Below are positions 28,330-32,057 of a stretch of 52,522 nucleotides of DNA, in pieces (the first letter of the stretch is position 1; every line of letters begins with the position of its first letter). The notes under the pieces were generated by a model. It saw only the letters and a program-made list of their open reading frames with translations, made no database searches and was not told the DNA's origin. A program made the position numbers and the translations under genes. The stretch is from assembly GCA_963170185.1 (NCBI GenBank), contig CAUJGS010000018.1, forward strand, positions 1 to 52,522, written 5' to 3'. The DNA is from Bdellovibrionota bacterium (GTDB lineage: Bacteria; Bdellovibrionota; Bdellovibrionia; Bdellovibrionales; JAMPXM01).

Positions 28330-28512
28330 GATTCAAGCCTCCTTCAAGCTGCCAAAACTGCCCATTTTTCGGGCTTCAAGCGCTCCCACCCAACCCCGAC
28401 AAACCAACACCAATATAAGAGGTCCAAGGCCGAAACGACACCCCTAGACGCGTCAATATCTCCATGCTACACCCATCAGCTCAGCATTCATGATCAAGAG
28501 GAAATGGAGCAC

Positions 28513-30633
28513 ATGGCACAGAACAAGTGGGTTCTAGAAAAGGTCCGGAACTTCGGTATTTCGGCACACATCGATTCAGGTAAAACGACTTTGTCAGAGC
28601 GTATCTTGTTCTACACAGGTCGTATTCACGCGATTCACGAAGTCCGCGGTAAAGACGGTGTCGGTGCGACAATGGACTCGATGGATCTCGAACGCGAAAA
28701 AGGGATCACGATCCAGTCGGCAGCGACGTTCGGAAACTGGAAAGACATTTCGTTCAACCTGATCGACACCCCCGGGCACGTCGACTTCACAGTTGAAGTT
28801 GAACGCTCGCTCCGAGTTCTCGACGGCGCGATCCTCGTTCTTTGCGGTGTTGCTGGCGTTCAATCGCAGTCAATCACCGTCGATCGCCAGATGAAGCGTT
28901 ACAACGTTCCACGTTTGGCATTCGTTAACAAACTCGATCGTTCGGGTGCCAACCCATTCCGCGTTATGGAAGGTCTTCGCGAGAAGCTTCGCCTCAACGC
29001 CGTTATGGTTCAAATCCCAATCGGTCTTGAAGACAAACTCGCGGGTGTCGTTGATCTCGTGGGCATGAGAGCCTACTACAACGAGGGCGAAAGCGGCGAA
29101 AACGTTGTCGAAAAAGACATCCCAGCTGATCTCATGGACCAGGCGAAGGAATACCGCAACGAGCTGATCGCGCGTCTTGCTGACGTTGACGAAGGCATCG
29201 CGGAAAAGTTCTTGATGGAAGAAGAGCCCACGCAAGAAGAAATCAAAGCCGCGATCCGCAAAGCAACTCTCGCCTTGAAGTTCGTTGCTGTCTTCTGCGG
29301 TTCGGCGTTCAAAAACCGCGGTGTTCAAAAGCTTCTTGACGGTGTTTCCGACTACCTTCCGTCACCAGGCGAGCGCGAGAACATCGGTCTCGATCTCGAC
29401 AAGGGCGAAGAAAAAGTCGTTATGGAAACCGACCCAAGCAAGCCGTTGGTTGCGTACGCGTTCAAACTCGACGACGGCCGTTACGGTCAGCTCACGTACA
29501 TGCGGATTTACCAAGGTACGATGAAAAAAGGCGACTTCATCATCAACACGACCAACCAGAAGAAGGTGAAAATCCCTCGTATGGTGCGCATGCACTCTAG
29601 CGAAATGGTTGATATCGAAGAAGCGTCGGCTGGCGACATCGTCGCTCTGTTTGGTGTTGATTGCGCGTCGGGTGACACATTCACAGATGGAACAACAAAC
29701 GTTGCGATGTCTTCGATGTTCATCCCTGAAGCGGTGATCTCGCTTGCGGTTGCGCCGAAGTCGAAAGATGCGGCAAGCAACTTCTCGAAAGCGCTTCAAA
29801 AGTTCCGCAAAGAAGATCCGACGTTCCGTGTGTCGCGCGACGAAGAGTCAAACGAGACTATCATCGCGGGGATGGGCGAACTTCACTTGGAAATCTACAT
29901 CGAGCGTATGAAGCGCGAGTTCAACTGCGAAGTCATCGCAGGTAAACCGCAGGTTGCATACCGCGAAACGATCTCTCGCTTGACGGACTTCGACTACACC
30001 CACAAAAAACAAACGGGTGGTTCGGGTCAGTACGCGAAAGTTGTTGGAACTATCGAGCCTCTTCAAGTTGAAGAGGGCAAAGATCCCAAGGCTTACGAGT
30101 TCGAAGACAAAGTCGTCGGTGGACGTATTCCGAAGGAATTCATCCCAGCTGTTGACGAAGGTTTCCAAGAACAAATGGTCAAAGGGCCTCTCATCGGGTT
30201 CCCGATCGTCGGCATGAAAGTCACCCTCAAAGACGGTGCCTACCATGACGTCGACTCGTCGTACTTGGCGTTCAAAATCGCGTCGATGGCGGCTCTGCGT
30301 GAGATCTACATGCAGGCGGGTCCAGTAGCGCTTGAGCCGATCATGAAGCTCGAAGCTGTTGCTCCTGAAGAGTACCAAGGTGCGGTCATGGGCGGAATCA
30401 ACCAACGTCGCGGTATGATCCAAGGTACGCAGACGATGGAAGGTTCGGTCACGATCACGGCCGAAGTTCCGCTCACAGAGATGTTCGGCTACTCGACAGA
30501 TCTGCGTTCGGCGACTCAAGGTAAAGGTGAGTTCACAATGGAATTCTCGAAGTACGCTCCAGTACCTCGCACGATCCAAGACGAACTTCACAAGAAGTAT
30601 CTCGAGAAGCGCGCGGCGGAAGCAAAAGGCTAA
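28513..30633 (+). CDS. fusA: Translation elongation factor G
   Basis: This GTPase drives ribosomal translocation. GTP-binding motifs [18 protein letters not shown] and NKLDRSG are seen, followed by domains II-V over about 700 residues, as usual. The variants [20 protein letters not shown] and [18 protein letters not shown] resemble mitochondrial EFG1 and the spdEFG1 group of spirochaetes and deltaproteobacteria rather than classical EF-G; this is from memory of the families. Codon choice differs from neighbours (more GGT, CGT and GTT), as expected for very high expression. ATG 28513 is chosen over ATG 28504, which has AGAGG only 2 bases before it. No ribosomal protein genes adjoin it. Confidence 0.96.
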
Positions 30634-30636
30634 GTC

Positions 30637-30759
30637 GCTCGGGGCTGCGTCTCGCGACACGTGCATCGTGCACTCGCGAGACTGGCTCGGGCATCCTGCC
30701 CTCGGCTCTCGAAATACGAGAGCTTCCCAGTCTCGAGGTCGCGTGACGCAGACCCGAGC
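30637..30759. other. Self-complementary 123-bp element after fusA
   Basis: By hand pairing, 30637-30658 matches the reverse complement of 30738-30759 at 20 of 22 positions (mismatches 30644/30752 and 30652/30744). Inside lie GTGCA-TCG-TGCAC (30661-30673), a 9-bp stem 30677-30685 with 30727-30735, and, enclosed by it, GGGCA-TCC-TGCCC (30689-30701) and GCTCTCG-AAATA-CGAGAGC (30705-30723). The result is a branched, cloverleaf-like fold. An alternative hairpin pairs 30649-30657 with 30674-30682. It begins 4 bases after the fusA stop and precedes the terminator. It may be an RNA in the fusA 3' UTR, a processed small RNA, or a mobile palindromic repeat; strand and role are unknown. Confidence 0.75.
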
Positions 30760-30787
30760 TCTGGTGGCAGCAGTGGGACGCAAAATG

Positions 30788-30823
30788 AAACCCCGAGGTT
30801 TAGGCCTTGGGGTTTTGTTTTTT
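30788..30823 (+). terminator. Rho-independent terminator of fusA
   Basis: An 11-bp stem (30788-30798 with 30805-30815, one G-T pair) built around AAACCCC and GGGGTTT closes a 6-base loop and is followed by a T-rich run broken by one G. It would end the fusA transcript after the structured element. The A-rich left flank is weaker in the other direction. Confidence 0.85.
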
Positions 30824-30833
30824 GGCGGGGGTT

Positions 30834-32057
30834 TTAGATGTTGTACTTGAGGCAGTCGACGATTTTCATTTTTAGTGCTCGGCGAGCTGCGAAGTATGAG
30901 GCGCAGATGGCGGCTAAAACCGTCGCGAACAAGGCCGTGAAGAAGGCGCTCTCGACGTAGAGAATCTTGATCGGAATTGGCTCACTTGCTCCCGGTAAAA
31001 CAATTGGGATACTCGCCCGATTGATCATGGCCATTGCGATCACCGCCAAGACCACTCCGACCAACGAACCAAGAAACCCCAGTATTCCGCCTTCCATCAC
31101 AAACAGTCGCAAGACATCTTCGCGCCTTCGCCCAATGGCACGAAGAGTTCCGATTTCGCCTGTGCGCTCGGCCACCGCCATGCTGACGGCACTCATCGTC
31201 GAAAGGAAAATCAAACTGAAAATAATGGCGGCGACGACCTTGTTTTGCGAAGCAAAGAAGGCTTCGGTTTGGTTGTACAAACGAGCAAGCTCCTTCCAAA
31301 CTCTGGCGCGCTCGCCCTCTCCTAAAACAGCGCGCACTTTTGGAACGGCCAAGTCGACCATGCCGTGTTCTTTAAGCTTCACGATCACTCGTTCGGCCGT
31401 CGTCGTATCCAAGAGCTTCTGTGCCGTTTCGATCGGGACAAAGACCGTGGTGTCGTCGATTTCTTGAATGACCGTCCGAAAGACCGAGATCACCTCCGTG
31501 TCGATGGCATTAATCCCGCCATCGGCGGTCTGCCCGATCAACGTCAATGTCTGTCCAGGCTTCGCGCCGATCGACTTCGCAAGCCCCTCGCCAACCGCCG
31601 CGATCATTCGATTTTCAGAATCCGTGTGTTTAAGGAACGACTCGCCTTCGATGATGGTGGTCTCGTTTAAGATTTCCTTTTCGATTTCGGGTTCGTAGCC
31701 AACAATTTGCGCAGCGACCGAACGATCACCCGTCGATACCAATCCGTAAAACGATTGGCGCTGCGAAACCGAGCGCACACCTTCTATCGAAGCGATTTTT
31801 TTCTTAAGCTCTCCTGGATCCTTTAGCTGTCGTTCAAGAAACGAATCTTCGCTATCTCGGTCCCAAAGCTTTTGATTCCCAATCTGAATGTGGCCGTATT
31901 GGCTTTCAACAGCCCCCCAACGAGTCGCTTCTAGAATATTGGCGGCAAAACCATGAAAGATCACAACCGCCGAATACCCTCCGGCCATAATCATCAGGTT
32001 CAAAGCCGTTCGCCGTGAATTGCGAAACAGATTTCTCAACGCAAGTTTCAAAGTCAT
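30834..32057 (-). CDS. FtsX/MacB-type ABC transporter permease
   Basis: The 407-residue permease has an N-terminal membrane helix (LNLMIMAGGYSAVVIFHGFA), a large periplasmic domain of about 200 residues and three C-terminal helices ending in YFAARRALKMKIVDCLKYNI. The cytoplasmic coupling segment GEIGTLRAIGRRREDVLRLF is characteristic of the LolC/LolE/MacB family, which extracts lipoproteins or pushes substrates mechanically from the periplasmic side. It overlaps the ATPase gene by 4 bp and is the last gene of a four-gene operon. Only one permease is present, so it probably works as a homodimer. Confidence 0.92.
   Translation of the reverse strand: MTLKLALRNLFRNSRRTALNLMIMAGGYSAVVIFHGFAANILEATRWGAVESQYGHIQIGNQKLWDRDSEDSFLERQLKDPGELKKKIASIEGVRSVSQRQSFYGLVSTGDRSVAAQIVGYEPEIEKEILNETTIIEGESFLKHTDSENRMIAAVGEGLAKSIGAKPGQTLTLIGQTADGGINAIDTEVISVFRTVIQEIDDTTVFVPIETAQKLLDTTTAERVIVKLKEHGMVDLAVPKVRAVLGEGERARVWKELARLYNQTEAFFASQNKVVAAIIFSLIFLSTMSAVSMAVAERTGEIGTLRAIGRRREDVLRLFVMEGGILGFLGSLVGVVLAVIAMAMINRASIPIVLPGASEPIPIKILYVESAFFTALFATVLAAICASYFAARRALKMKIVDCLKYNI

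Follow-up and report, generated by a model that had tools for sequence, protein, structure and literature searches.

A branched palindromic element downstream of fusA belongs to a dispersed and apparently undescribed DNA repeat family of Bdellovibrionales

Introduction

The terminal repeats of MITEs are common to the copies of a family, and integron attC sites, which fold as single strands, are imperfect palindromes with conserved unpaired features. Palindromic repeats that carry a GTAG or CGTC tag are known as REP/BIME sequences (PMC3733652). In E. coli, it is well established that quasipalindromes become more perfect through template switching (PMC7202029), a process able to create as well as to maintain stems (PMC8794818).

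The folded sequence found after fusA in the genome studied here is a member of a dispersed DNA-palindrome family in Bdellovibrio-type bacteria, which is apparently undescribed, no published description having been found in the open-access literature. We regard the element as probably a palindromic DNA repeat of the non-autonomous kind, in which fold-back copying of the 5' flank generates the 3' arm and later matches it to the 5' arm again. It is filed as a variant among dispersed palindromic repeats; it fails the REP and MITE tests that could be run.

Structure of the element downstream of fusA

The window, a stretch of 52,522 nucleotides from a Bdellovibrionota genome, carries fusA (28504..30633, + strand), which encodes elongation factor G, as seen by its open reading frame and Pfam EF-G domains. 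On the same strand, the entire branched element spans 30637..30759, as defined by its fold and by a covariance-model match with an E-value of 2.6e-23, the window copy itself being among the sequences used to build the model. It had been placed directly after the fusA stop in the initial annotation; it does adjoin the end of the gene, but starts three bases past the stop codon (30631-30633). The separate terminator reported 3' of the element was recovered in the fold as an intrinsic terminator at about 30784..30822 (+ strand), and the 3' neighbor is a convergent FtsX/MacB-type permease gene (30834..32057, − strand; open reading frame and domain search).

The element consists of an outer stem, a three-way junction and an inner stem that holds two of three small hairpins, all on the + strand; the two stems and the three hairpins are as initially annotated. 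The outer stem (P1) is 22 nt long with two mismatches, and the limits given initially are exact to the base: the 5' arm (30637..30658; sequence, fold and paired changes across copies) ends with a conserved GAC, and the 3' arm (30738..30759; sequence and covariation alignment) starts with a conserved GTC. Between them lie the unpaired junction RC (30659..30660), which is AC in the window copy and whose second base is invariant in 25 copies, hairpin 1 (GTGC-ATCGT-GCAC, 30661..30673), with a covarying stem, and the unpaired junction TCG (30674..30676), where T is invariant and C is found in at least 90% of the 25 copies. The inner stem (P2) has 9 bp, pairing 30677..30685 with 30727..30735, and encloses hairpin 2 (GGGC-ATCCT-GCCC, 30689..30701), with CTC and TCG on its flanks, these features being supported by the fold and the covariation alignment, as well as hairpin 3 (GCTCTCG-AAATA-CGAGAGC, 30705..30723), whose stem covaries. 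The unpaired AG that precedes the outer 3' arm (30736..30737) is invariant in 25 copies.

Regarding its stability, the region 30630-30830 folds at -111.2 kcal/mol, compared to a mean of -78.0 (sd 4.7) for dinucleotide shuffles, of which none in 200 was as low (z = -7.1), the low energy being due in part to the contribution of the separate terminator. The initial observation is confirmed. A local sequence accident without relatives, a reading in whose favor the genome itself offers just a single further and weaker copy, is refuted by the family and has a practically negligible probability, given this z value, the covariance-model score (window copy in the model) and the occurrence of the same core in 25 genera. 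An alternative hairpin between 30649-30657 and 30674-30682, proposed as the basis of a switch, is indeed a perfect 9-bp complement; it is confined to the window copy (3-6 bp in the 24 others), so that a structural switch is not supported. A known Rfam RNA was also rejected, as the window had no match at gathering scores and an E-value search returned matches at chance level only.

Distribution and copy number

When the window element was searched by BLAST, its own genome (G000) returned one copy, while the congener G003 returned ten obvious relatives, all distant from fusA. A first covariance model, built after aligning these ten relatives with the window copy, detected at least about 40 copies in G003, a number supported by consensus BLAST, at least eight in G002, at least one in G004 and none in G001, as well as at least three in G028, from another family. 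A second model of wider scope, for which 25 copies from several families were used, placed the element in 51 of 141 genomes and in 25 of 66 genera of Bdellovibrionales (E up to 0.001), with 1 to at least about 41 copies per carrier genome and 0 to at least about 41 within a single genus. In a search of 369 genomes (E up to 0.0001), a single genome among the 228 of the phylum outside this order gave matches (G328, at least eight copies), so the family is almost confined to Bdellovibrionales, the order of the window. The G328 copies (L318-L321) have long outer flanks that are common to the copies along with the arms, unlike the remaining family. A phage or plasmid origin was rejected, with no matches in viral contigs, searched with the exact order-wide core pattern, or in plasmids and phages.

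The window genome holds at least two copies, after fusA and after murD. The second and weaker one (G000:C114:50903-50978) lies directly after murD and is followed by a terminator, the same layout as at fusA. At the end of fusA itself, the element is present in G000, G002, G003 and G004 and lacking in G001; in a further six genomes inspected within the taxonomic family, fusA is followed by an ordinary terminator without the element. The link to fusA claimed in the initial annotation therefore holds for four of five congeners and is local to the genus. A fusA-specific RNA was rejected, because the copies are dispersed and fusA in those six genomes lacks the element; the search proposed for further copies, by BLAST and by covariance model, found them dispersed and covarying in relatives, the outcome that had been named as pointing to a repeat element rather than to a fusA-linked RNA. 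The fusA copy would then be an old insertion, retained in most of the genus.

Conserved core and private arms

The core follows the consensus GAC-RC-[hairpin]-TCG-[inner stem]-AG-GTC. Its invariant or near-invariant letters (n = 25) are the GAC/GTC closing the outer stem, the second junction C, the TC past hairpin 1 and the AG before GTC, the middle pair of GAC/GTC being variable in 3 of the 25 diverse copies. Element length ranges from 84 to 190 nt across copies. In copies from outside the genus, outer-arm length is 26-89 bp (median 41.5) with about 90% pairing, and segments taken from the arms of different copies have an identity of 28%, as expected by chance; in G003, the arms are partly common to its copies. 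Three Pseudobdellovibrio copies (L171, L175 and L164) have, in addition to long private arms, an AT-rich private stretch of about 60-70 nt at the tip of the inner stem.

These features separate the element from the nearest repeat classes. It resembles MITEs in being small, non-coding and dispersed with inverted repeats at the ends; however, its arms are locus-specific and its middle is conserved, terminal repeats common to copies being absent outside the genus at the arm identity given above, and no parent transposase was found. Similar to REP/BIME, the copies are short, dispersed, non-coding intergenic palindromes, often near gene ends and with a very uneven copy number, whereas the core is a three-way junction instead of a simple hairpin of 20-40 bp, the arms are private to each copy and, on inspection, vary at their ends without a common GTAG or CGTC tag. 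As a link to RAYT was not found either, the element differs from REP sequences in size and tag, and from the GTAG REPs also in RAYT association.

The stems are strongly supported by paired changes. In the alignment of the window copy with the ten G003 relatives, comprising 49 pairs, 94% of the cells are paired and 28 pairs have changed on both sides, and none of 500 shuffles equaled the real alignment on any measure. The pairing is Watson-Crick only, and G.T is no commoner than other departures: 25 diverse copies have 563 Watson-Crick pairs, 1 G.T, 4 A.C and 51 others, and 54 copies from the genus and its allies have 2338, 14, 48 and 117, respectively. Under selection on RNA, G.U should be the commonest departure, and it is among the rarest here, so covariation that tolerates G.U, as in a structured RNA, is not what is observed (1/564; 14 G.T against 48 A.C in the 54 copies). 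The initial interpretation is partly supported: of its three guesses (structured RNA, protein-binding 3' UTR and repeated mobile palindrome), it is the third that agrees best with the data, and the RNA reading loses weight, as G.U is accepted in the stems no more readily than any other mismatch. On the sense strand of the 54 copies, A.C exceeds G.T (48 against 14), perhaps reflecting a strand-biased mutation pattern or the non-independence of copies.

Paired changes could also be followed at single loci. Between two sister Bdellovibrio genomes, 4 of 4 arm differences at one locus are matched on the opposite arm, and the same pair of genomes retains an internal mismatch that is conserved close to the junction; at the locus L256/L309, arm changes are only partly matched on the other arm. 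Arm differences matched without G.U, as known from template-switch quasipalindromes, are thus found in full at one locus and incompletely at L256/L309.

Origin of the arms

Copying of an arm is seen most clearly at L335 (G131:C4:91900-93100), where the arms form a perfect inverted repeat of 83 bp. Its left arm includes the final codons and the stop of the upstream gene (..GLRDAFDPKMKK*), whose tail, judged by eye, we take to be peptide-permease-like, and its right arm is the inverted copy, starting just past the stop of the convergent gene. In five other copies (L171, L164, L170, L079 and L084), the left arm or a wider inverted repeat extends into the complete terminator hairpin of the upstream gene, and the right side holds a lone inverted half of that hairpin, as if copying had halted at a folded template.

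Beyond the element, complementarity between left and right flanks is commoner in G003 than in swapped flanks, with 16 of 39 copies above the 95% level. Among these 16, the complementarity reaches upstream coding sequence in 12 and downstream coding sequence in 3, a count biased by the upstream gene being nearer than the downstream one. Of the two complementary sequences, the coding one is presumably older and the non-coding one derived from it by inverted copying, and one G003 copy (L149) suggests copying in the opposite direction. A first reading of the flank complementarity, as insertion into the loops of host terminators, was dropped, given that part of the upstream gene's coding sequence lies within the outer arms. 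Several copies support that the 3' arm is an inverted copy of host sequence located 5' of the core, and by analogy with them, the 3' arm is probably the copied one in the window element too.

Among the orthologs examined, neither a clean insertion event nor a clean empty site was found. The site in G069 orthologous to a G067 copy (L298 and L253, respectively) keeps the left arm without the core and the inner right arm, apparently by deletion between short repeats.

The element is also similar to template-switch quasipalindromes (PMC7202029, PMC8794818), in that one arm would be made perfect by copying from the other and double changes occur without intermediates; those, however, are single unrelated hairpins, whereas the core of the element recurs across loci and genera.

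Genomic position

In G003, the best-sampled genome, the copies lie mostly just 3' of stop codons, the upstream gene being mostly in sense and ending at a median of 22 nt before the start of the model. The unambiguous cases comprise 12 sense and 4 antisense copies (p = 0.08), so this bias is suggestive only, and the upstream genes are diverse. In Bdellovibrio, one copy (L257) adjoins the SRP RNA, according to an Rfam match, others are downstream of what is presumably rplL, named by eye from its C-terminus, and another is near a sequence that, by eye, we take to be tRNA-like. One or two copies past rplL, where rpoB is expected next, are seen in several Bdellovibrio genomes (L248-L251 and L101), and where there are two, they are inverted relative to each other with about 230 bp between them.

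Another palindromic repeat, unrelated to the first and about 60 bp long (AATTTCGCTGCCGCC...GGCAGCGAAATT), was noticed at G003:C4:113158, C24:59213, C40:27530 and C34:38699 and at G002:C23:11575 (L141, L148, L043 and L108). At the four of these five places that were read, all but C34:38699, it is nested within hairpins of the branched element.

Such positions bear on the main rival, an effect of the copies on transcript ends, which is possible. The element would then function as RNA at the 3' end of the mRNA (a stabilizer, an RNase III site or a protein-binding hairpin), duplicated and kept for the upstream gene. The short distance past stop codons and the mostly sense orientation relative to the nearer gene in G003 are in agreement with it, as are the strong covariation and the persistence after fusA, with a conserved unpaired core, in most congeners. 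It is weighed down by the pairing, in which G.U has no advantage over other departures, by the change from no copy to at least about 41 within one genus, by the variety of upstream genes and by a sense ratio that does not reach significance, so that we consider this function unlikely.

Candidates for mobilization

The dispersal and the jumps in copy number also invite a strict mobile element, whose folded single strand would be read by a DNA-processing enzyme (an HUH nuclease, a tyrosine recombinase or similar) and whose arms would be produced by the transposition reaction itself. Such a substrate would be consistent with the branched, conserved tip and its invariant unpaired bases, and Watson-Crick-only pairing fits a DNA fold. 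Nonetheless, no enzyme of the class tested, the Y1/RAYT transposases, is linked to it by adjacency or association: the element is absent at 25 Y1/RAYT loci, and the presence of these transposases and that of the element show no association in 141 genomes (38 and 13 against 58 and 32, p = 0.26). RAYT mobilization was rejected for lack of both linkage and association, and no mobilizing enzyme was identified. Since G003 also showed no longer, autonomous version with a gene inside, such a strict mobile element appears rather improbable, slightly more so than the RNA function.

Integron attC sites offer a further parallel, being likewise imperfect palindromes folding as single strands with conserved unpaired features. 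In contrast, the element has a three-way junction, is found outside cassette arrays and has no RYYYAAC / GTTRRRY boxes at its arm ends, conservation in the arms being limited, on inspection, to the junction GAC/GTC.

Proposed mechanism

The favored explanation remains fold-back copying. During replication or insertion, the core may fold back on single-stranded DNA, and its 3' end (..AG-GTC) would pair with GAC, extension along the 5' flank then generating the second arm before synthesis goes back to the normal template. Later template switches could re-match arms that have diverged, giving paired changes without G.U intermediates, while the core would spread into the 3' flanks of genes; any effect of the fusA copy on the end of the fusA mRNA would be secondary.

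Fold-back copying accounts for the long, perfect and private arms, the paired changes without G.U and the host sequence in the arms. Template switching alone leaves unexplained the conserved unpaired junction residues and the conserved internal mismatches, and these imply that there has been either selection or a recent spread. As for the arrival of the core at new sites and the conservation of the junction, they would be due to spread by some activity or to selection on the folded core.

More tentatively, the family may represent selfish DNA of a new kind, with a branched core of about 50-80 nt that encodes no protein and moves to the ends of genes. Wherever it arrives, the second arm could, just as tentatively, be built by copying the host flank through fold-back, with the consequence that each copy would have unique, near-perfect arms and that its surroundings would be turned into a long palindrome.

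Significance

If true, fold-back copying at these loci would provide a natural and replicated case of inverted duplication and arm re-matching at the DNA level, in dozens of genomes and well over 100 copies, of a process usually studied mutation by mutation. It would also show that RNA selection is not needed for strong covariation to arise, which is a caution for covariation-based RNA discovery, the absence of G.U being the tell-tale that separates DNA-level covariation from RNA selection here. For the bacteria themselves, the analysis adds an apparently undescribed repeat family to an order that includes predators, with copies next to the 3' ends of fusA, rplL and murD, among other genes.
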